64,000 nt of DNA from Paenibacillus sp. DMB20 (GTDB taxonomy: Bacteria > Bacillota > Bacilli > Paenibacillales > Paenibacillaceae), in NCBI RefSeq assembly GCF_000987955.1, contig NZ_LAZU01000001.1:1-64000 (forward strand), written 5' to 3'. A program made the translations under genes and the position numbers. Below the pieces are notes generated by a model. The model was given only the letters and a program-made list of their open reading frames with translations. It searched no databases and was not told the DNA's origin. This document shows, piece by piece, positions 18,164-28,903 of the stretch. The stretch's first letter is position 1. Each line of letters starts with the position of its first letter.

Positions 18164-19156
18164 TTACATGACGCCCGGGTTGTAACAGCTTTTCTCCCGG
18201 TAACCGGCTTCTGCCGCCTTTTTCGGACTATCAAAGACCTCATGCACCTCATAAGGAACCGAACAGGTACTGCGGTAAACATACTTCAGGCCGTCTGTCG
18301 GATCAACTACGCCGTAATAAACAGGATTCTTCACGAGCCTGCCGCCACCGAGCGCATAGTTGTTGTAATATCGGTCTCCCACCGGGATTCCTTGAATGAA
18401 TGCCATCATTCCGATATCGTCAACCGTATTCACCCATTCCTCCTGACTGATGACGGGTAAGTCAAACCTGTAAGATATGCCGTTCCGGGCCGCAATTTCG
18501 TTGTGGCGCCCGATGTAATATGCAAGATCCTCCTGGACTGCATGTACGATCGTCAATCGCCTAACTTGCTCAAAGGTCTGTGATTGATTCAGCAGAGGTA
18601 TGCCCGTAGTCCCGGCCAATTCGTGCTGCCAGCCGGCATGCCATGTCCCGCTCGACAGATGATACCCTTCCACTCGGCGATCCAATGTAAAGTGGATGCT
18701 GTTACCGTCGCCGTCAGCGTAGGCATATGGAACTTTTGGCGTCCAGGCATGTCTCCAGGATGGATTTCCTTCCGAATCCGTAAACGACTCCATCGCATAG
18801 ATAAAATACCCGTCATAATCCATAACCGCGATGGCAGGAATATACCACCATAAAGCGGCTTGCGCCTGAGGATCGTCTTGGATTCCCATATTTAAATAGA
18901 GAGTTCTGGAGAAGGCGGCAAGAGCTTTTTCTTTGTCTGCACGAAATCTCTTGGATGATTCGTAACCCGCCTCCATCTCCTGCCTCTCATTTACGTTCAG
19001 CATCACGCCTCCGTCTTGAACCGCCGTTCTCAATCCGGCCGTATATTTCATTTCAATGTAACGAATATCCTGCATGTTCCCGGCATGCATGGACAAGATC
19101 ATAAAGAACGGAAAAAACAATGCGGTAAATAAAACGGCAAGATCAGTAATCTTCAT
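18164..19156 (-). CDS. Unknown membrane-anchored protein, last gene of the Tad-like operon
   Basis: I do not recognise a named family. The 330-residue protein has one hydrophobic N-terminal segment (about residues 5-23, LAVLFTALFFPFFMILSM) and a large soluble part, presumably outside the cell. The rest is rich in aromatic residues (ALWWYIPAIAVMDYDGYF, YYNNYALGGG). Two cysteines near the end (STCSVPYE and EKSCYNPG) could form a disulfide. The N-terminal anchor followed directly by polar sequence recalls TadE/TadF minor pilins. The gene overlaps the previous one by 14 bases, so the two are translated together. As the last gene of the locus it may be a surface or assembly component of the appendage. 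That role is inferred from position only. Confidence 0.6.
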   Translation of the reverse strand: MKITDLAVLFTALFFPFFMILSMHAGNMQDIRYIEMKYTAGLRTAVQDGGVMLNVNERQEMEAGYESSKRFRADKEKALAAFSRTLYLNMGIQDDPQAQAALWWYIPAIAVMDYDGYFIYAMESFTDSEGNPSWRHAWTPKVPYAYADGDGNSIHFTLDRRVEGYHLSSGTWHAGWQHELAGTTGIPLLNQSQTFEQVRRLTIVHAVQEDLAYYIGRHNEIAARNGISYRFDLPVISQEEWVNTVDDIGMMAFIQGIPVGDRYYNNYALGGGRLVKNPVYYGVVDPTDGLKYVYRSTCSVPYEVHEVFDSPKKAAEAGYREKSCYNPGVM

Positions 19157-19697
19157 TCAGCACCATCCCGCCGTACGGAAAAACAACGCCGGACTTGTCC
19201 CCCGATCCCGAACCCGTCAGAGCCTCGCTGAACACCGAGTATGGAGTACGGTTCAGACGGTATGCCTTAACGTTAAAAAAATCGCCTGCAGCAAGCTTGT
19301 ATCGCCTATCGGGATCATCCTTGGCCAGATCGGAAGGTGGAAACAGAATGCTCATGATGTCATCCGTATAAAATGAATCGAACACGACCGAAAAATGGTT
19401 TTGAAACGTTCCGGGATCTGCCGGATCGCCGTACTCCGGATGATACCTTTTATGCTGATGCTCCATCTCCACCTTGTAAAGGTTTCCGGTAACCTCCAGC
19501 TCTTGCAAAAAACCGTTATACATCTGCGGCGTTACATAGCCCTTCGTACGAACGCTGTCTACGAATTTCGTGACCGTTTGAAACACGACAATTCTCGAAA
19601 GATCATCCTGCCTGCGCGCACTCTCCCCTGCCGGAACGAAGTAGAGCAGCAGAACGGACAGCAACGCCGCAAACCACTTGGATAACGAATTGGACAT
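19143..19697 (-). CDS. Unknown membrane-anchored protein in the Tad-like operon
   Basis: A 184-residue protein with an N-terminal hydrophobic stretch (residues 8-22, WFAALLSVLLLYFVP) and a soluble remainder. The segment after the anchor (residues 28-75: RRQDDLSRIVVFQTVTKF, then DSVRTKGYVTPQMYN and FLQELEVTGNLYKVEME) resembles proteins of Tad-like loci in other Bacillota, as far as I can judge by eye. No enzyme motif is visible. It lies three bases downstream of the preceding gene and overlaps the next. A minor-pilin or pseudopilin role is a reasonable guess. Confidence 0.6.
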   Translation of the reverse strand: MSNSLSKWFAALLSVLLLYFVPAGESARRQDDLSRIVVFQTVTKFVDSVRTKGYVTPQMYNGFLQELEVTGNLYKVEMEHQHKRYHPEYGDPADPGTFQNHFSVVFDSFYTDDIMSILFPPSDLAKDDPDRRYKLAAGDFFNVKAYRLNRTPYSVFSEALTGSGSGDKSGVVFPYGGMVLNEDY

Positions 19698-19700
19698 GGC

Positions 19701-20096
19701 TTACCTCACTTTTGAAAACTGGATCCGCACGATTTCGCCTGAACTGCCGTAATGGTAACGCACGGCGTAATGGCTTGCCGCTTCAATGACGGACAAATCC
19801 CAACTTTCGGGATCGCCTCCCGGGGGGAAGCTTACACCGTCCACGGATAGGTCATACAGCTTCTTTTCTTCCCCCCGGAGCATGAACAAAATCTCACTCC
19901 CTCGAAAGGTAAGAGCGTCGCTATACCTTCCCGGGTTCACGGTGGATATCGAAATGCTTTGCTCCTGGCTCAACCCGTAGGCTGCCTCAATGGCTCCGTC
20001 AATGTCTGATTGCATTTGATATGAATACCAGCATGCCCCCATAAAGAGGACGGCAGCAACCGACAACTCCAGCATCGAAATAACTTGGTTTTTCAT
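19701..20096 (-). CDS. Small pilin-like membrane protein in the Tad-like operon
   Basis: 131 residues with a single N-terminal hydrophobic helix (about residues 8-25, SMLELSVAAVLFMGACWY) directly followed by a polar helical region. This is the arrangement of TadE-like and other class III signal-peptide pilins. There is a Glu at residue 10 inside the hydrophobic start (SMLELS), reminiscent of the Glu5 of type IV pilins, but no clear prepilin cleavage motif. No database family is recognised. It is tightly packed between two genes of the same kind. Confidence 0.6.
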   Translation of the reverse strand: MKNQVISMLELSVAAVLFMGACWYSYQMQSDIDGAIEAAYGLSQEQSISISTVNPGRYSDALTFRGSEILFMLRGEEKKLYDLSVDGVSFPPGGDPESWDLSVIEAASHYAVRYHYGSSGEIVRIQFSKVR

Positions 20097-20119
20097 GGAA
20101 CCGGCCCCTGGAAGATGCT

Positions 20120-20578
20120 TTATTGTTCAAAAATAATGCCTCGAATCACATTTGAGTTATCCTTCACAATCGTCGCCTTGAACTTGCCGCTGGGATTGAC
20201 GTATTCCGGGCTTTTCTCATTCAGCGTTTCCGTGATCGACCCTTGACGCGAATCGGGATGCTCGACGGATCCGTCCGTTTTCAGCACATTGCCGTACCAT
20301 TGGCCAGCAGGGTTTTTGCCCGTTTTGATCATGATTCCGAACTGATCCTTGTCTTTATATTTGCGGAGGGCATTGGTCACCTGGGAACCGCTGATGGTTG
20401 TCCCGTCATAAACCGTGAACGCGGCCTGGGAAAGCTCTGTCTGAATATCCGAAAAGTTGTTTTGGGCCGTCTTGGTAGCCTCCTGGGCGGAAATGAACAA
20501 AATGACGACAATGGTGATAAGGGCAATGGTCAGGAATATCCCTGCCGCCACCTTTAAAGCCGAAGATGCGTTATTCAT
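20120..20578 (-). CDS. Pilin-like protein of the Tad-like operon
   Basis: 152 residues. Residues 9-30 form a strongly hydrophobic helix (VAAGIFLTIALITIVVILF) after a short polar N-terminus, and a long amphipathic region follows, as in archaeal and Tad pilins. The middle contains TVYDGTTISGSQVTNALRK, a pattern I associate with small proteins of Bacillota Tad-like clusters. The RBS is a GGAGG-type site within 41 bases of the end of the TadBC gene. This is the best candidate for the major subunit because it is the first small protein after the platform gene, but no prepilin peptidase is encoded in the window. Confidence 0.65.
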   Translation of the reverse strand: MNNASSALKVAAGIFLTIALITIVVILFISAQEATKTAQNNFSDIQTELSQAAFTVYDGTTISGSQVTNALRKYKDKDQFGIMIKTGKNPAGQWYGNVLKTDGSVEHPDSRQGSITETLNEKSPEYVNPSGKFKATIVKDNSNVIRGIIFEQ

Positions 20579-20619
20579 AATCGTTTATCCTCCTCTTCCC
20601 GTAACCCGGGAACATATCA

Positions 20620-22690
20620 TTACAATTTTTGAATCTGTTCATAATAATCGTTCATCTGCGTAAAACTCATCCCGATCAGCGGAATAACCAAATACAAAAA
20701 AAATGAGTGCGTACATCGGAGCAAATCCGATCATCCTTCCCCAGGCCGCTTTGGTGTCGATCATTCGCTCATATTCCTGCCTTCGCTGTTCAAAGACAAA
20801 TGCCATTTCGCCTTCAAGATCGTCAAACACATCCTTGATCGGCACCTTGTCAACGGCAAGCAGCAGTTTATCCACCAATCGCTGGAAATCCGGGAACCAT
20901 ACATCCTCCTTTAATTCTTGCAGGGCAAGCTCGGCACCGTGCTCATAGTGCAAAAGGCTTTTCTGAATCGGCACTTTAAAAATGACCGCAAACCGATTCA
21001 GCCATTCCAGTATGCCTTCAACCGATATTCGGCCCATTCCGCGCAAAATGGAAATGACGGTCTGGAATTGATAGACCTCATGCTTCATCTCCAGCTTCCG
21101 GACCTTGCGGTTGAAGATCAACATCCACAATGGGAAATAATACCCTATAACAAAAGCTGCGAAAGCGCATATAACTTCCCACCATTTTAAATATTCAGCA
21201 TTATATCGTTCCAGTTTGCGAACGATACGCTCCGCCGTTTCCTCAAGTTGATCCAGGGTCAGCTTTCCCTCCCAAAATTGCTTAACCGTTTCTTCAGCCT
21301 GTTCCGGCGACACCCCGGATGATCTGCCCAAATGGTTCATGACTTCCCGGTCAACGGCCGCTTTCTTAAACGCTTCCTTCTCCTGCAGGGCATTCATCTT
21401 ACCGAAAAAGGATGTCTCGGAAACGGGCGAATACAGGAGTTGATGTTTCGCGTTAACATGCAAAAACAAACAGGTAACCATAACGCCAATGAACGCAAGC
21501 AGGCCTAAGCTCATCCGTCGTACATAGAACCACTCCAGCCGAAGGCGGGTATTGCTTTCCTTGAGCAGCCTTACCCGCCGCTCGTGTTTAGGCGTACCGG
21601 CTTTAGGCATCAGCATTGCAGCAAGCGAGTTCACGGGTTTATAACGCAGGAGCATGCTTTCCCAGGATTTTTTGTCATATCCGGCCCGGTAATCGGTTTC
21701 GCTGTTTTGCTGAAGTTTTTGCAGCAATGCATAGGCAACGAGGATGATGACGTAAATGGACAGCTTGGTAATAACGCCCAGCTTGCTCATGTAAAATTCA
21801 TCCATGGCGGGAAAGCTGCCTCGTGCCCATCGTTCAATCGGTTTCGTAAAGAATACCGGGACCAGGGCAATAACGTTGAGTCCCTTCAATAAATAGTCCA
21901 GCTTGTCGCGCCTTAAAATTTCCAAATGAATCTCTTTGGTCAACCCGCTTAACCCCTGCAAAAAAATAGAGCTGCTTTTCTTGTCACGATCTCCAAATTC
22001 CATCACGAGGTGGGATATCCCGGCAAAAGCCTTGAGGAACCGGTTGGGTGCGGTTTCGTAATACCGTTCAAGCTCTTCCTCGGGATCTTGAGAGATCAGC
22101 GCCTGATAGATGCGGTGAGCATGCAGGGATATTTCATGCCCCGCAGTCTCGGCGGCCTCATAAATCGCTTCTTCCACCATTCCGTGCTGCTGATAATGAT
22201 GTCTGACACCGGAAAAAAGCTCAAGGGATTGAACCAGCAGCCTTCGCTCCAAGCGGTTCATATAGATATCGATCAATAAATCGTGAATAACCACGGCAGA
22301 CAATAGAGATATGAGTACAAACGCAATCCCAGGGTTAATCAAAATGAGCAGCAATCCGGTAATTCCGGCTGCACCGGCAACCATCAACGTTATTTTCATC
22401 GTTTCGTACCGGAGTGAAACTTCATCGAAAGGGTGTATGATCGAAATCCGCTTCCGCATCCTCTTCACATAAGCCGAAACCATCGGGAGTTTCATCGCGT
22501 TGATGTACGCCGTTTGGAAAAAATAACGGTATCTTTGCTTGAAGTGGGCAGATCTGTTGGCTTTGTGAGGCCTGGAAGATTCCACAAGCTCCTGGTTTCT
22601 GCGTTGAATCCACAGGAGAGCCCCGTATATAACCGCAAAAGCGAGCAAAGAGAACGCCAAAACGGAGATCAGAATATCTTTTGTGGTCAC
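20620..22690 (-). CDS. Fused TadB/TadC-like inner-membrane platform protein (one apparent frameshift)
   Basis: A 689-residue membrane protein with two type II secretion F-like halves, normally separate TadB and TadC proteins. Hydrophobic segments are near residues 6-28, 98-140, 262-276, 303-325, 395-415, 510-535 and at the C-terminus. Between them lie helical cytoplasmic domains (SLELFSGVRHHYQQHG in the first half, YQFQTVISILRGMGRIS in the second). One extra base in the A run 20696-20703 changes the last residues. Corrected, the end reads LYLVIPLIGMSF and stops at 20620, giving a proper final membrane helix. The gene overlaps tadA by four bases. The fusion interior has no suspicious homopolymer, so I take it as real. 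Confidence 0.78.
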
Positions 22691-24573
22691 ACTGTCACTC
22701 CCCAGCTTTCCCGGATAAAATTTCGGAACGAATCGATATCCTGCGGCAGCATCTGTTCTTCCATCTCTCGAATCGACCGTCTCGATAAGGGAGCCGTCGC
22801 TTCATAACCCCCGTTTCTGTATTCAACGACATTTCGGGAGGTATAACGATAGCGAACCGATTGGCGTGACCCGTCAGCGCTATGCTTGGTGTGGCTTTGA
22901 CCAAACTCCGCCAGGGTTTCCGCTTCCTCCGGCATCGCTTCTCCGGAGAGCTCCCATTCGAACGGTATGCATTCCGTTATTCTTTCGATATATCGTTTCC
23001 CGTTATGATCCCTTCTCAGGTGGATATCGAAATTTATCACGCTGACCACTTGCTGCTCCGCAATATCCTCCTGCCGGAACATCCCGCTTTTTAGCAACGA
23101 ATTCCTTAAAGACTGCACTAGATCGTTGAACGTCTTGGCATGATGCGTGAATACGGTGAACAAGCTGGCCACCTGCGACATTTGAATCATCCAGGATGCC
23201 ACCTCGTCACTTGCCACTTCGCCCAAAATATTTACGGTTCCATCCGTTTTCTTCTGAAGATCAAGCCCCTCCTGTCCGCTGATAAACTCGGTTTCCCGAA
23301 AGCTCAGGATATTTCTTCGGCTGTAAATTTTTCGCAAGTGGAGCTCAAACGCCATCTCCTGAACCCGCAATGTATAGGAAGCATAGATATGCTTGACCAT
23401 GGCCATCAGCAGCGTTGTTTTCCCTGATCCTTGGGCGCCTGTAATGGCCGTAATACGGCTTCCTTTCATCAAATACTGCAGCAGGCCGATCGGGATATGC
23501 GCACCATGGCCGGTGATCAGCTGATCCAGCAAAACGGCATCCACATCGAATTTCCGGACGAAAAAAGCCCACGATTCGGAAAACGGAGGCCGAACGACGA
23601 CAACGCGCGAACCGTCTTTCATTTCGTTCACTTTATAACCGTTTGCTTCGGATAACTGTCCGGGGTGATTGTATTTGTAAATGTTCTGGCAGACCCTTTT
23701 CAACTCCCTTACATCCCCAAAGGACAAAAAAGCCATATGAATCGATATTCCTTTATAAAATATCCATATGCTTTCGCACTCCGAGGCGGGAGGTCCCGCA
23801 AAACCGGCGTAATAATCATTCTCTTTAAGGGTATCTTCTACGGCTTTATCTCCGAGCATCCCGCTAACGCCGCCGCTCACCCCGTCAATCCGCTGATCCC
23901 GAATCTCGTCAATGACAGAAAACCCCTTGTAATGCTGGTAAATTCGCTGAACCACAATATTCAGCTTGTCCTCCAAACTCAGTGGACGGATTTCATGGTC
24001 ATATATGTAATCAATATCGTCGGCCGTGACGGCATAAACGGCATCCTCGCCATACTCCTCAAGAATTCTCGGCTGAGACAAATGATAAAGCTCCAACATC
24101 GTCGACAAGGCCTCATCCCCATACTCCTGCTGGTATAAATACAACAGGATCTCGAACTTGTCCTGGGGCGTAAGGGCTTCATGCCGATGAAACGGGATGG
24201 CATGGTTAAGATTCGACTCGTTTACCTGCAGGTTCTTTAGCAAAAGCTCCTTTAAAAAATCCTTAACGTACCGCTTGTCCAGGACATTGCCTGAGATGCA
24301 TCCTTTAAGAGCCCGCCGCAGCTCGCTTCTTTTACTCAAGCGCCTGCGGTACTCTTCTTCATGAAGTCCAAGATCGGAAAGCTGGCTCCGGGTTATCTGA
24401 TGGAGCGTATCCTTGACAAATGCGGTCATCGATTCAAGCGAATACTGGTCTGGCCCAGGTCTGGGAAGCGTGAGCTGTCTTTTCGTTCTCCTCCATCGCA
24501 GCGTTATATAAAGACCGGCCAGTATAAATATCAGAACCATGAACAAAGTGTTTTGGAACGTGCCGGTGAGCAT
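22687..24573 (-). CDS. TadA/CpaF-like secretion ATPase with an N-terminal membrane anchor
   Basis: The motor ATPase of a type II/IV secretion or Tad pilus system. The C-terminal half has the Walker A motif GAQGSGKTT (K385), the arginine-rich region before it, and NILGEVASDE with the GE pair in place of the usual IVGEVRGGE. A histidine-box-like THHAKT follows. Unusually, residues 8-26 are hydrophobic (NTLFMVLIFILAGLYITL) and followed by RWRRTKR, predicting a membrane anchor. Normal TadA is soluble. The 300-residue N-terminal region is longer than in CpaF. It starts directly at the end of the MinD-like gene. Length is 628 residues. Confidence 0.82.
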   Translation of the reverse strand: MLTGTFQNTLFMVLIFILAGLYITLRWRRTKRQLTLPRPGPDQYSLESMTAFVKDTLHQITRSQLSDLGLHEEEYRRRLSKRSELRRALKGCISGNVLDKRYVKDFLKELLLKNLQVNESNLNHAIPFHRHEALTPQDKFEILLYLYQQEYGDEALSTMLELYHLSQPRILEEYGEDAVYAVTADDIDYIYDHEIRPLSLEDKLNIVVQRIYQHYKGFSVIDEIRDQRIDGVSGGVSGMLGDKAVEDTLKENDYYAGFAGPPASECESIWIFYKGISIHMAFLSFGDVRELKRVCQNIYKYNHPGQLSEANGYKVNEMKDGSRVVVVRPPFSESWAFFVRKFDVDAVLLDQLITGHGAHIPIGLLQYLMKGSRITAITGAQGSGKTTLLMAMVKHIYASYTLRVQEMAFELHLRKIYSRRNILSFRETEFISGQEGLDLQKKTDGTVNILGEVASDEVASWMIQMSQVASLFTVFTHHAKTFNDLVQSLRNSLLKSGMFRQEDIAEQQVVSVINFDIHLRRDHNGKRYIERITECIPFEWELSGEAMPEEAETLAEFGQSHTKHSADGSRQSVRYRYTSRNVVEYRNGGYEATAPLSRRSIREMEEQMLPQDIDSFRNFIRESWGVTV

Positions 24574-25416
24574 TCAAGCCCCCCTTTCCGTAAAGCCCGA
24601 GGCTGCCGGCAATCCCAGGCGCTCAGCTGCCGCGAAAGCGATGTTTCTGACAGCTTGAACATATGGGGTAACGCGTCTTCTGTCTCCTCCTCCGCGCGCC
24701 CTCAGAATACAAGACTGGAGATTGCGCGAATTCCATGCGTTCGCAATTTCCGTGCAATAAGGCACACCCTCAAGCATTCCTTTCAATCCGAACCGCCGCT
24801 TCATATTTTGAAGCGTGCAGTGGCTGTTCCGGTCATATCTTCCGACAACATAACCGACCGTTTCTTCCCGAATATTCATCTCCGTTATTGCCTTCTGTTC
24901 GAAGCAACCTTCCAGCGATCTCAGATTTTGGGTGAGTCCGAACAATACCAACTTCGACGAACCAAGGAGCTTGCGGTCTGCCGCATTCGGGAACCCGTTT
25001 CCCGCATCCGCTACGATAACGTCGTAGGACCGGCTTGCCGTTCTTATAATTTGATCCAGTAAACGGCATCGTCGGTCATCCCCCATTGCCCAAGGATTCG
25101 GATGAGCGCTGAGAAGATCTAGCTTATCCGGAAGAAGAGGGATGGTGTAATCCCTAAGGTTATCGGGAGTCAGGCGTCCGCTGGCCGCCAGGCGCTCCAA
25201 TGCGCTCATTCCCTCATCCTGAAAAGTCGCAATGGAATGATCAAGAGGCTCCTTTCTTAACGAATACGCCTGCTCCACTCTTTCGCCGGCTTTTCCTCCG
25301 TGCAACAAGAGGCACTTCACTTTAAACTCCGCCGCCAACACCACCGGCAAGCTTGCAGCCAATGCGGTGCTCCCGGTCCCTCCCGGCAGAGGGCTCCATA
25401 CCGTAATTAAACTCAT
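24574..25416 (-). CDS. ParA/MinD-like protein with an altered P-loop
   Basis: 280 residues with the fold signature of the SIMIBI ParA/MinD/TadZ class. The N-terminus reads SPLPGGTGSTALAASLPVVL, where GGTGST replaces the deviant Walker A GGVGKT, so serine stands at the position of the catalytic lysine (S16). A Walker B-like strand is YDVIVADAGNGFP. TadZ/CpaE proteins place the Tad apparatus in the cell, and some lack ATPase residues. This one is the best TadZ candidate here. It is preceded by a second ParA-like protein one base away and followed at once by the ATPase gene. Confidence 0.75.
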   Translation of the reverse strand: MSLITVWSPLPGGTGSTALAASLPVVLAAEFKVKCLLLHGGKAGERVEQAYSLRKEPLDHSIATFQDEGMSALERLAASGRLTPDNLRDYTIPLLPDKLDLLSAHPNPWAMGDDRRCRLLDQIIRTASRSYDVIVADAGNGFPNAADRKLLGSSKLVLFGLTQNLRSLEGCFEQKAITEMNIREETVGYVVGRYDRNSHCTLQNMKRRFGLKGMLEGVPYCTEIANAWNSRNLQSCILRARGGGDRRRVTPYVQAVRNIAFAAAERLGLPAASGFTERGA

Positions 25417-25417
25417 G

Positions 25418-26125
25418 TCACGCCCTTCTCCTTTCCGCCTGTTTCATCGCCCGCCTGATATGGCGCCTTTCCATTTCGGTCAGCCTTTGAATCAATTCCA
25501 TAAGAGCCCGCTTGTACGTTCTGCCCAGCGGTTTTATCCGAAGCCTTCCGGCATGCTCATTCTCTATTTTCAATGCATACGACAATTCATCCCATGGAAT
25601 CCGGATCGGCTCGTCAAGCCAACGCACCTGGGCCCTGCCCAGGTAACTGTCGATATAAGCATCGTCCGTCATGTCTTCGATCGCATTTAAATAAACGCGC
25701 TGAAACCCCGGGGGCTGAAGCCCTTCCCATCCTTCCGACAACCCTTTTAGCCACTGGTCGCCTTTCATGAGTCCTGTGAGTTCGAAGCTGCTTACCCATA
25801 CCATTGCGTCCGCCCCTTGCCAGTCTTGAGGCTTCATAAAGGACTCCTTTTCCACATCGATGACGACCAAATCATAAGGAGCCTCTTCCGACCGGCCAAG
25901 CCTATCCATTAAAGCGGAGCAGTCTTCAAAACCGCATGCAACGTCAAATCCCGAAAACTCGGTGATATCCAAGCAAGGATCCAGCCTGCCTATGCAATGG
26001 GCATATTTCCGTTCACGGGCCGCATCGGCCAACAGTATACGTTTTCCATCCTGAGCTAAAATCTTACAGAGGTACAACAGCATATCGCTTTTATCGCAAA
26101 TGCCTGCAAATATCCACGTCCTCAA
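25418..26125 (-). CDS. CpaE/TadZ-like protein lacking a P-loop
   Basis: 235 residues. The overall pattern (FAGICDKSDMLLYLCKIL, then GKRILLADAA, and YDLVVIDVEKES) follows the strand order of ParA-like ATPases, but no glycine-rich P-loop is left at the N-terminus. The Walker B-like strand is kept. The C-terminal 50 residues are highly basic (Arg- and Lys-rich), which could bind membrane or nucleic acid. It overlaps neither neighbour by more than a few bases and is most likely a scaffold or positioning factor for the Tad-like machine. The assignment is structural guesswork from motif order. Confidence 0.6.
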   Translation of the reverse strand: MRTWIFAGICDKSDMLLYLCKILAQDGKRILLADAARERKYAHCIGRLDPCLDITEFSGFDVACGFEDCSALMDRLGRSEEAPYDLVVIDVEKESFMKPQDWQGADAMVWVSSFELTGLMKGDQWLKGLSEGWEGLQPPGFQRVYLNAIEDMTDDAYIDSYLGRAQVRWLDEPIRIPWDELSYALKIENEHAGRLRIKPLGRTYKRALMELIQRLTEMERRHIRRAMKQAERRRA

Positions 26126-26152
26126 TTTCTTTGCCTCCTTTTGCCGGGCCGA

Positions 26153-27233
26153 TTATGGGCTTGTAAAAATTGCCTCCGTTTCGATGTCCTGCTGATCGCT
26201 ATCGCCTGCCGAGGCGGAATCCGAAACCGCCTTTCCGCCGCTAAAAATTTCCTCCGATTCAGCTGTCCGGTCATTCCGGATGCCATCCTCTGCCCGCTCC
26301 GTCTCCGGTTCATACGCAACCTCGCCGTTTTCACTTTCCTTTACAGGCCACGAATAAGAATCTTGTCTCGTCTGTTGATAGATCATATCGCCGGAGCCGG
26401 ATGCCTGGATGGAACGCCCAGGATCCATCTTCTCGAGATCACGGTCCAAAGCGGTCCGAATCGAGGATTCGAGCTGCCTCTCAGCCTTATCGATAATGTT
26501 TGGATCCCTCTTGATCAATGCAATGACCTCCAGATTCGGCGGATAATTGGGCACCGCCTTTTTCTGCATTTGCGGTTCGACATAGGTAAGCGCATAAAGC
26601 GAAGCCTTATGAAGGTACGCATCAACCATCGCACTGGAGAGCAGCAGTATTTCCTGCTCGCTCAATGTTGTCCAGAAAGCCGGTGCCGACAGTTTATCGA
26701 TCGCTTTTTTGGACAGAACTATATAATCCTGGCCTGTCGGGAACTGGATCCGTATATCCACGGTATCCTTCACTTTCAGGTTGCTCGGCAACCAAACGGA
26801 TTTCATTTCCTTGTTTCTTAGATCGGGGGGGCGTGGCCTCCTCCTCGTACAGCATAGCCAGCGTGATCGGAGTCCCTTTTCTGAGCTCGATTTTCGTTCC
26901 CTTGCCTGTAAGCTGTTCCAGCTTCAACGGCATATTATCCGGTGATAGATCGGCGGGCAGGCGAACCTCCTGCAGATCCTTCCTGTCGAGGAAGTGACCG
27001 GCGGGGAGATCCTTAAGAGGAATCCAAGCCGTTTTCATCGTCCTTAACCGATCGAGCTGAGCGGCTTCCAAATCTTGAATTCTTTGCCGGTACTGCTGCC
27101 TTTCCTGAGCGAACTGTTTCACGTTCCCGTTTTGTACAACATAGAAACCTCCGGCCATCAACACACCCATGAGCCCGGCTCCCGCAAGACCGGCATACAG
27201 CAATTTTTTGCCGCGCCGACGTATGATTGGCAT
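26153..27233 (-). CDS. CpaB/RcpC-like SAF-domain protein (one apparent frameshift)
   Basis: An anchored periplasmic-type or extracytoplasmic assembly protein of Tad loci. Residues 10-30 are hydrophobic (LLYAGLAGAGLMGVLMAGGF), a short coiled coil follows, then a SAF domain (WIPLKDLPAGHFLDRKDL, and GTPITLAMLY). One extra base in the G run 26825-26831 breaks the frame after EEEATPP. Removing it continues with DLRNKEMKSVWLPSN and gives 359 residues. The C-terminal 80 residues are acidic and low in complexity. In Gram-negatives CpaB aids the outer-membrane secretin. Here, with no outer membrane, a wall-spanning or pilin-guiding role is more likely. Confidence 0.75.
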
Positions 27234-27236
27234 TTC

Positions 27237-28733
27237 TTATTCTCCTCTCCATGAAAACGGTTGAGCTTTCAGGAACCTGAATCTGCTTTTCCGCGGTTTC
27301 ATCGGTAAATAATCCTCGTATATTTCGCGCATCGCCTGCTCGGATGCCACGGAAAGCTCGAAGGGATCGCATATCGGCGGAAGGGAAACCACCTTGCTGC
27401 CTCCAAGCGCTTTTCTCAAATTTTCGGCGGCGGCTGAGGCCGCAAGGGGCAAGACGTAAACTCGGCCGGGCTGCTCATGACTAGAAAGCATGCGGGTGAG
27501 CGTTATAACGTCATTCCGCCTCCATTCCGCCCCGGATCCGACAACGACCGGAACGTTCGCCCGTAAAAACTCCTCCAAGCGATCGCTGTCGCGATAAGAC
27601 CCCAAATCCAAAACAACCGCATCATAACTGCCAGAGATCAATGAAATGACGTCGCTTCTGGCGGTCTGCCGCCAAAAATCGATACCGTTTATATTGAATT
27701 TTCGCAACGAGACGTTTGGACATCCTTCCGCAATCTCCTGGATGCGGATAAATGCAGATGATCGCGCGCCCATCTCCACAACCGCTACGCGATTGAACAT
27801 TCCGGCCAGAAAATGCCCCATCATGATACAGCAATGCGTCGTTCCGAGACCCGGCGAAGTTCCCAAGACGGCCGTAACCAAAGTCCCTACTGCCGTATGC
27901 TTTATGCCGGTAGCCGCCTCTCTGGCCGGCAAGGGCATGCTCCCGTTTTCCAATGCGGTTTGAACCTCGTGGGCGGACTGGTACCGGTTTTCCGGCTTTT
28001 GCTGCAATAGCTTCCGGATCACGGAAGCAAAGCCTGCGGGCATGTCCTTTCGGATATGTCGCTCTACTCCGGGAATCCATTGGCTGAGGCGTCCGCCCGT
28101 GCCCAGATAAAGCATAAGCGCCCCAAGAGCGTACAAATCCGACCTCGCATCGCTTTGCCCGCCGCCATACTGCTCGGGGGCAGCAAATCCGACAGTCCCC
28201 AGATGAACCGTGTCCTCATTCTGTTCCTGTTTGTAACTGCGCGCGATGCCAAAATCGATGAGCCTGGCTTCCATATCCGTTGTAAGCATGATATTGGACG
28301 GCTTTAAATCCCGGAAAACAACGGGTGGAGTATGAGCATGAAGATAACTTAATACCTCCAGCAGCTGTTTGGCGAGACGGAGCATAAAGTCGGCTGACAC
28401 TTGACCGCGGTAACCCCGGATATACTTTTCCAATGTCATGCCGTGAATATAGTCCATGACCAAATAGGTATAACCGCTTTCATCCGGTTTAAAAAAATCG
28501 ACGATTCGCGGCAGTCGGGGATGGCTAAGCGTAATCAGCAGTTCCGCTTCGGCCTGCACGGCATGAAACATGCCATGTACGGATACCGTCTCCTTAATCG
28601 CCCATTTCTTTCCAGGCAGCTTTAAGTCTTCCGCTAAGTAAACACAGCTCATTCCCCCCTCGCCGATCTTCCGTTCGACGCGGTATCGGTCTCCGAGCAA
28701 AATTCCTGGCTCCAGCTTTGATCGATGCTTCAT
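27237..28733 (-). CDS. Ser/Thr protein kinase fused to a ParA-like domain
   Basis: First gene of the Tad-like operon, with GAGGGAG before its ATG. Residues 15-265 are an eukaryotic-type kinase: glycine loop GEGGMSCV, lysine K47 in WAIKE, catalytic D142 in FRDLKPSN (Phe replaces the usual His of HRD), DFG at 160-162 and APE at 185-187. No transmembrane or PASTA part follows. Residues 280-498 resemble a ParA/MinD domain: GTSPGLGTTH (291-300) sits where the P-loop should be, without the lysine, and YDAVVLDLGSY matches Walker B. No transmembrane helix is seen. The kinase should be active, and the second half may place it at the machine. Confidence 0.85.
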   Translation of the reverse strand: MKHRSKLEPGILLGDRYRVERKIGEGGMSCVYLAEDLKLPGKKWAIKETVSVHGMFHAVQAEAELLITLSHPRLPRIVDFFKPDESGYTYLVMDYIHGMTLEKYIRGYRGQVSADFMLRLAKQLLEVLSYLHAHTPPVVFRDLKPSNIMLTTDMEARLIDFGIARSYKQEQNEDTVHLGTVGFAAPEQYGGGQSDARSDLYALGALMLYLGTGGRLSQWIPGVERHIRKDMPAGFASVIRKLLQQKPENRYQSAHEVQTALENGSMPLPAREAATGIKHTAVGTLVTAVLGTSPGLGTTHCCIMMGHFLAGMFNRVAVVEMGARSSAFIRIQEIAEGCPNVSLRKFNINGIDFWRQTARSDVISLISGSYDAVVLDLGSYRDSDRLEEFLRANVPVVVGSGAEWRRNDVITLTRMLSSHEQPGRVYVLPLAASAAAENLRKALGGSKVVSLPPICDPFELSVASEQAMREIYEDYLPMKPRKSRFRFLKAQPFSWRGE

Positions 28734-28873: not shown

Positions 28874-28903
28874 ATTATAAAACAAGGTGACTCGATTTGT
28901 AAA
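28874..28903 (-). promoter_or_regulatory. Promoter of the Tad-like operon
   Basis: On the minus strand TTTACA (28898-28903) and TATAAT (28874-28879) are 18 bases apart, a strong sigma-A match. It starts 16 bases after the methyltransferase stop. Transcription from here would run through the hairpin at 28788-28843 before reaching the kinase start at 28733, giving a leader of about 130 bases. Confidence 0.7.

Follow-up and report, generated by a model that had tools for sequence, protein, structure and literature searches.

Within a 64,000-nucleotide stretch of DNA from Paenibacillus sp. DMB20 (contig NZ_LAZU01000001.1, positions 1 to 64,000; termed the window) there is an operon of ten genes whose long TadA-like ATPase shows almost perfect co-occurrence with a large protein of the DUF5704 family that is encoded outside the window. 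This pairing is new, and it is the strongest clue to the function of the operon. Sequence comparison supports the assignment of the operon to a conserved and distinct type IVc-like lineage, and we consider that it may encode a machine of the Tad/CpaF branch, building a type IV filament or pseudopilus by which DUF5704 proteins are displayed or deployed, a reading to which we give slightly better than even odds (about 0.55).

Conservation of the operon and its ATPase

Read on the minus strand, the genes extend from 28733 down to 18164 and all run in one direction, with nine junctions of 3, 27, 1, 0, -4, 60, 23, 3 and -14 nt from the kinase gene to pil4 (Table 1). The ten same-direction genes with tiny gaps or overlaps described in the original prediction, which was made from the sequence alone, are thus borne out. 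At least 349 relatives were confirmed, and the best 80 of these form the set of loci used below, with a gene taken as present at E <= 1e-3. The loci come mostly from Paenibacillus, together with Cohnella, Fontibacillus, Tumebacillus and nine loci from metagenome-assembled genomes (MAGs) of Clostridia. Genes for parA2, tadA and tadBC are present in all 80 loci, with parA1 in 79, cpaB and pil1 each in 78, pil3 in 77, pil4 in 75, pil2 in 70 and the kinase in 52. The nine-gene order from cpaB to pil4 is intact in 68/80, the other 12 being the Paenibacillus loci L097, L158 and L159 and the nine Clostridia loci. The genes therefore stay together in relatives; their failure to do so had been set beforehand as an outcome that would refute the prediction. 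In the Clostridia loci (L166-L174) pil1 is often present in two or three copies, several of which start MENASKAL, and pil4 encodes 529-870 aa in seven of them.

The long TadA was found at E < 1e-100 in 26 of the 60 nearest genomes, counting that of the window itself, and the same block was recovered when the neighbourhoods in these 26 were mapped with the window proteins. The ten loci closest to the window (L032-L041) share an rlmM-like gene upstream (10/10) and abcF downstream (7/10). Across the order the ATPase is present in 152/296 genomes, about half of the sample, and the operon is also carried on plasmids of Bacillaceae and relatives. In a sample of 299 genomes from the phylum, the ATPase and DUF5704 were found in the same three genomes, all from this order, with only four ATPase candidates scored per genome so that divergent members may be missed. 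A collection of phages gave only three partial ATPase matches, with 26-27% identity.

As judged by sequence, the ATPase is CpaF/TadA-like. TadA matches TIGR03819 at E 4.5e-10, where its 39 bits lie below the cut-off of 373, and a profile of 14 family ATPases places the CpaF structure 8rkd first in the PDB (E 7.4e-11, positions 274-543 of 628), ahead of VirB11, FlaI and PilT. Residues G382, G384, K385, T386, E452, H477 and H478 are invariant in the 14 members. A tree of 33 proteins sets the 28 rows of the lineage apart, at 100/100 support, from one ATPase adjacent to a type VII secretion system (T7SS) and from the ordinary CpaF of the genus, represented by four proteins; the tree has a midpoint root and long branches, that separating the groups being very long, and only the split is used. 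The TadA-like ATPase that was proposed thus stands. A distinct type IVc-like lineage, also proposed, is supported because the block is conserved across genera and its ATPase splits from the ordinary CpaF proteins.

PF00437 is matched twice in the window genome, by the operon tadA (below the family cut-off) and by an ordinary cpaF that is cut by an insertion. The latter lies on contig C15 in two pieces ~44 kb apart (L182, 1216-2136; L065, 8711-9049). Its left end is followed by a gene that by inspection resembles a large serine recombinase (436 aa) and its right end is preceded by phage-like genes, so that the gene seems to have a prophage within it.

Pairing with DUF5704 proteins

At five loci (L042, L043, L045, L047 and L049) pil4 is followed by genes whose products look, by inspection, like a stalk-type protein and a secreted protein of large size. 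At L043 Pfam identifies this pair as Cu_amine_oxidN1 and DUF5704 (E 1e-78). DUF5704 occurs in 25 of the 60 nearest genomes and in 148 of the 296 genomes of the order. Of these 296, 146 have both the TadA-like ATPase and DUF5704 and 142 have neither, while the ATPase occurs alone in six (G039, G047, G126, G172, G213 and G230) and DUF5704 alone in two (G209, and G040, where the match is partial and covers 44 positions). One of the two pairing misses among the 60 nearest genomes, G047 (locus L050), has a broken operon. The association persists within genera: the 12 in which the machine is present in some members and absent from others give 40/3/1/112, with a Cochran-Mantel-Haenszel (CMH) value of 101.

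The partner in the window genome is a protein of 1146 aa that is a member of PF18964 (DUF5704) with E 6e-66; it is encoded on contig C15, away from the operon and behind a gene for an S-layer-homology (SLH) protein. Nine DUF5704 loci lying away from an operon have an SLH or stalk-type gene directly before DUF5704 (by Pfam for two and by eye for the rest), and one of these (L090) lies ~32 kb from a tadA. In the linked loci the SLH or stalk-type gene precedes DUF5704 by 0-26 nt in 17/17. The DUF5704 proteins open with what appears by eye to be a Sec-type signal. DUF5704 matches outnumber those of TadA in some genomes (eight against two in G069), which would suit an exchangeable cargo or adhesin.

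The pairing extends to plasmids. Among 72,556 plasmid records the long TadA heads the list of matches in 24 and DUF5704 is present in 23, with both in 22, the exceptions being NZ_CP013205.1, NC_014389.1 and NZ_CP061174.1. A DUF5704 match on a Butyrivibrio plasmid is weak, with 24% identity over 39% of the query. On pBpOF4-01, pPPM1a, pTHECO01, pSSII-1 and pAZOPL1, pil4 is followed, after at most one small gene, by the SLH or stalk-type gene and then DUF5704. A diguanylate cyclase gene lies directly after DUF5704 in four of the seven plasmid regions that were opened (L175, L176, L177 and L181), an arrangement that would suit surface attachment. HD-domain phosphohydrolase genes are present at L177 and L181. 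The plasmid diguanylate cyclase and HD-domain genes hint at control by cyclic di-GMP.

No mention of the name DUF5704 was found in the open-access papers searched. A possible relationship to CmoA of Paenibacillus NAIST15-1 was set aside solely on the vWFA and IPT domains described for that protein (PMC5072692).

Pilin-like proteins, candidate regulators and reading frames

Prepilins are described as being defined by a class III signal, the leader of which is removed by a prepilin peptidase, and the shape of a type IV pilin as that of a lollipop (PMC10191384). The AlphaFold2 (AF2) model of pil1 has this appearance, with one long helix (residues 2-55) and a beta head, at a mean predicted local distance difference test (pLDDT) score of 78. 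The N-terminus is near-invariant and the head variable, with M1, N3, A4, A7 and A11 invariant in 41 sequences. The ATG of the window pil1 is preceded by AGGAGG, and an in-frame TAA stands only three codons ahead of it. The start was placed in 95 pil1 genes, two rows lacking the start pattern having been dropped; in 23 of the 95 a stop lies less than five codons upstream. An in-frame start codon lies upstream in 19 pil1 open reading frames (ORFs). The class III pattern G/A-x4-E near a hydrophobic start was found in 0/97 pil1, 1/69 pil2, 0/77 pil3 and 5/75 pil4 proteins. Six of nine control proteins from ordinary Tad loci gave the pattern, and the three misses are large TadG-like proteins.

None of the four single-pass proteins matches the Flp, TadE or TadG models, and no Flp-like small pilin was found. 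At E <= 0.1 there was no TadE/F/G match in Pfam for the window pil1-3, 39 pil4 or 13 pil3 proteins, and TadF was matched by just one of 41 pil1 members (E 0.078). Pil4 has no relative in the PDB by sequence. There is no prepilin peptidase in the operon, and the sole PF01478 match of the window genome is on contig C15. The prediction that a peptidase, Flp, TadE/F and TadG would be lacking from these genes thus agrees with the searches. On another contig of the same genome there is a Tad locus of the ordinary kind, which includes a peptidase. Genome G298, a single contig with the ATPase and no peptidase match, might have served as a natural test but was not used because it has two TadA matches (best E 6.7e-196) that are perhaps one split gene.

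The first gene was predicted to encode a kinase-ParA fusion. Its kinase part is clear, and what we take to be the glycine loop, catalytic Lys, RDLKPSN, DFG and APE motifs are kept across 52 aligned proteins, but the fused ParA-like domain has a P-loop consensus that lacks Lys in these proteins. Control by a kinase of its own would apply to the 52/80 loci that have the gene but not to the 28 where it was not detected; in kinase-less loci the gene before cpaB can encode a CpaE-like ParA protein (L043, AAA_31 E 1e-14). The two separate ParA-like proteins that were expected are present, but match weakly and have degenerate P-loops without the usual lysine; the best match of parA2 is to TIGR03815 (E 1.4e-4, below cut-off). 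Because this lysine is absent, the ParA-like domains are more likely to be scaffolds than classical ATPases. The CpaB/RcpC-like SAF protein is confirmed by PF08666 (E 1.3e-8), with TIGR03177 CpaB at E 9.2e-6 (below cut-off), although its gene in the window is broken into two frames. Beyond the kinase, SAF and TadA proteins there is no convincing Pfam match in the operon.

The two overlapping frames of cpaB are 26694-27233 and 26153-26806, with the break near a run of seven C (26825-26831); in relatives the gene is a single ORF of 298-405 aa (40 listed of 59 non-redundant). Towards its 3' end tadBC departs from the conserved frame, near a run of eight T (20696-20703), so that the window ORF stops at 20639, while the conserved C-terminus runs on in another frame to about 20620. 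The EssC gene of the same genome is likewise in pieces, which makes it likely that both breaks are assembly errors, probably homopolymer indels. We judge a programmed frameshift in cpaB to be less likely, since relatives have one ORF and both tadBC and EssC are also out of frame. The promoter-like site listed in Table 1 is weak because such sites are no commoner in the region than in shuffled sequence. Rfam and tRNA scans of the 64-kb window were empty.

Table 1. Features of the operon in window coordinates, in order of transcription, followed by the best upstream promoter-like site.
Feature	Position	Strand	Basis
Kinase gene: Ser/Thr kinase (N-terminal) fused to ParA-like domain, lysine-less P-loop	27237..28733	-	Pfam Pkinase E 6e-37
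cpaB: CpaB/RcpC-like SAF protein, two frames	26153..27233	-	SAF PF08666; TIGR03177
parA1: weakly ParA-like, TTG start, no P-loop	25418..26125	-	Pfam: nothing better than E 0.2; family in 79/80 loci
parA2: CpaE/TadZ-like ParA homologue, degenerate P-loop	24574..25416	-	TIGR03815; 80/80 loci
tadA: TadA/CpaF-like assembly ATPase, long N-terminal part	22687..24573	-	TIGR03819; PDB CpaF 8rkd
tadBC: presumed platform, 683 aa membrane protein with two helical halves	20620..22690	-	Position after tadA; AF2 model
pil1: presumed major pilin, leaderless	20120..20578	-	Invariant N-terminal residues; AF2 helix and beta head; start context
pil2: variable single-pass minor-pilin-like protein	19701..20096	-	70/80 loci; no class III signal (SPIII) pattern in 68/69
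pil3: single-pass minor-pilin-like protein	19143..19697	-	77/80 loci; no SPIII pattern in 77/77
pil4: single-pass protein, large conserved outside domain	18164..19156	-	75/80 loci; family alignment
Promoter-like site upstream of kinase gene, 11 of 12	28874..28903	-	Weak

A possible mechanism and its alternatives

By sequence the operon would be a variant of a Tad-type machine. It shares with the Tad/Flp (type IVc) pilus, as seen in the ordinary loci L061, L062 and L065, a CpaF-like ATPase, ParA-like proteins, single-pass subunits and a contiguous operon, and the SAF/CpaB protein is of a Tad family. It differs in having no peptidase in the locus, no match to Flp or TadE/F/G, subunits that lack the leader pattern, one large protein with no T2SSF match at the TadB/TadC position, a kinase and a DUF5704 partner. 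Imam et al. 2011 (PMC3244431) described Gram-positive Tad-like loci with tadV and no prepilin motif from Clostridium species as well as from Desulfitobacterium, and from that description they resemble the operon in having tad genes with no prepilin-signal protein. Two other systems were set aside as ordinary loci by their descriptions: the type IV pilus of P. thiaminolyticus (a pil locus; PMC9765702) and the Tad island of P. polymyxa A18 (a tad locus; PMC6465253). No description of the present system was found among the papers listed in searches of the open-access literature.

We infer a filament, the topology and roles of the proteins, and a function in adhesion, as follows. The machine would be adapted to a thick cell wall. 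The TadA-like ATPase would power the TadBC membrane protein, which would add pil1 subunits to a filament or pseudopilus, with pil2-4 acting as initiation or tip subunits. CpaB may span the wall or dock in it, the ParA-like proteins may position the machine, and the kinase would switch it, a task that may fall to a CpaE-like regulator in other members. A prepilin peptidase would not be needed because the pilins begin with the membrane helix. The working outer part would be the secreted DUF5704 protein of ~1100 aa, made with its SLH or stalk-domain partner; it would cross the membrane by Sec, and the machine would then display it, carry it or push it out, most likely for adhesion. The role of TadBC as the platform is suggested by the position of its gene after tadA and by its AF2 model (mean pLDDT 81, predicted template modelling score 0.71), which contains similar series of helices at 122-327 and 503-682.

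A number of observations count against this proposal. The co-occurrence of TadA and DUF5704 is in part shared ancestry, and the stretches covered for the nine Clostridia loci did not yield DUF5704, so the pairing is not universal; DUF5704 is moreover a family of no assigned function. A TadB-TadC fusion, as originally predicted, is not demonstrated by the sequence. A T2SSF match is present in none of 24 tadBC members among the families listed at E <= 1 (the first 25 of 41 families, the list for the window member being complete), and profile comparison gave no match either to ordinary TadB or TadC, weakly tested with two sequences each, or between the two halves of tadBC. Foldseek and VIA-align searches with the tadBC model gave no clear platform match, with chain 3jc8_Ca of the type IVa pilus machine at Z 6.8 and rmsd 11.4 lying amid unrelated rows of up to Z 7.5. 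The same searches with the pil1 model gave no pilin fold, and along part of the helix the pLDDT falls to 53-60. A four-residue leader of pil1 ending at the invariant Ala4 is possible, and a prepilin peptidase is found somewhere in 293/296 genomes, so its presence does not discriminate.

We hold a more ambitious version tentatively, as somewhat short of an even bet: that this is a widespread Bacillota lineage of type IV filaments made with no prepilin processing, in which pilins are produced in mature form to deploy S-layer-anchored DUF5704 adhesins under kinase or cyclic di-GMP-linked control.

Were the machine instead a secretion device, a short pseudopilus acting as a piston would free DUF5704 through the wall and S-layer as a monoderm analogue of type II secretion, and no long pilus would form. 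The Sec-type signals, the fact that some genomes have several DUF5704 genes to one machine and the failure to find a Flp-like small pilin are all consistent with this. The SLH partners, however, suggest retention at the surface rather than release, and pil1 is multiplied at some loci, as expected of a filament subunit. We therefore regard this variant as unlikely, while it is the best of the alternatives.

It is less probable still that the machine is an accessory of type VII secretion that provides T7SS toxins with a contact pilus or with a conduit in the wall. The divergent members L055 and L058 adjoin EssC-like genes (FtsK_SpoIIIE E 4.5e-66 and 3.5e-64); L055 also has a YukD match just over cut-off (E 2.9e-6), both have WXG100 matches below cut-off, and at L058 a nuclease (endonuclease)-domain protein follows pil4. 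At L060, likewise a divergent member, the start of an FHA-bearing EssC lies beside the operon. These neighbourhoods agree with a report that T7SSg and T7SSh always adjoin Tad genes, a link left open there (Garrett et al. 2024, PMC11217815), the Tad genes of that paper being likened to ours from their description. By the same description the window operon differs in being free-standing, in having a kinase-ParA fusion and in belonging to a lineage that is tied more closely to DUF5704 than to a T7SS. The window genome has an EssC, on contig C35 and not in the window locus. EssC (E <= 1e-150) is present in 97/152 genomes that have the ATPase and in 24/144 that lack it, but it is absent from 55 of the 152, and inside the 12 mixed genera the link is weak (25/18/23/90, CMH value 11), so that an accessory role was judged weak on co-occurrence. 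A five-sequence profile found EssC in none of the stretches of the 80 best loci, and the operon proteins have no WXG100, YukD or convincing FtsK match, the nearest being that of tadA to FtsK_SpoIIIE at E 0.28.

The type VII locus of the window genome (L066, on contig C35) carries WXG100 genes, one at E 8e-20 and one below cut-off, and its EssC is in broken frames. In genome G001 a type VII locus (L076), with EssC and by inspection small partner genes, adjoins a different and very divergent Tad-like set, the ATPase of which groups in the tree with the CpaF side, on a branch of great length. In genome G014 (L054/L071) a member of the operon family, a stalk-type/DUF5704 pair and an EssC cluster lie within ~33 kb.

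Most improbable is a mating adhesin of large plasmids that is sometimes captured by chromosomes: 24 plasmid records have the long TadA, all seven that were opened carry the operon (including pBpOF4-01, pPPM1a, pTHECO01 and pSSII-1) and transfer-type genes lie close by in L177, L178, L179 and L181, yet about half of the sampled order has the ATPase, the ten loci closest to the window largely share their flanking genes, and 23/23 DUF5704 plasmids are typed as non-mobilizable.

If the lineage of machines displaying or deploying DUF5704 does lack leaders, it would break the rule that prepilins carry a class III leader cleaved by a peptidase. The pairing makes a single testable system out of an unexplained operon and a domain of unassigned role, and this is present in around half of the sampled order, on plasmids such as pPPM1a of P. 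polymyxa, and in culturable Paenibacillus species. The lineage may also give a context to the unexplained Tad genes that lie beside T7SSg and T7SSh.

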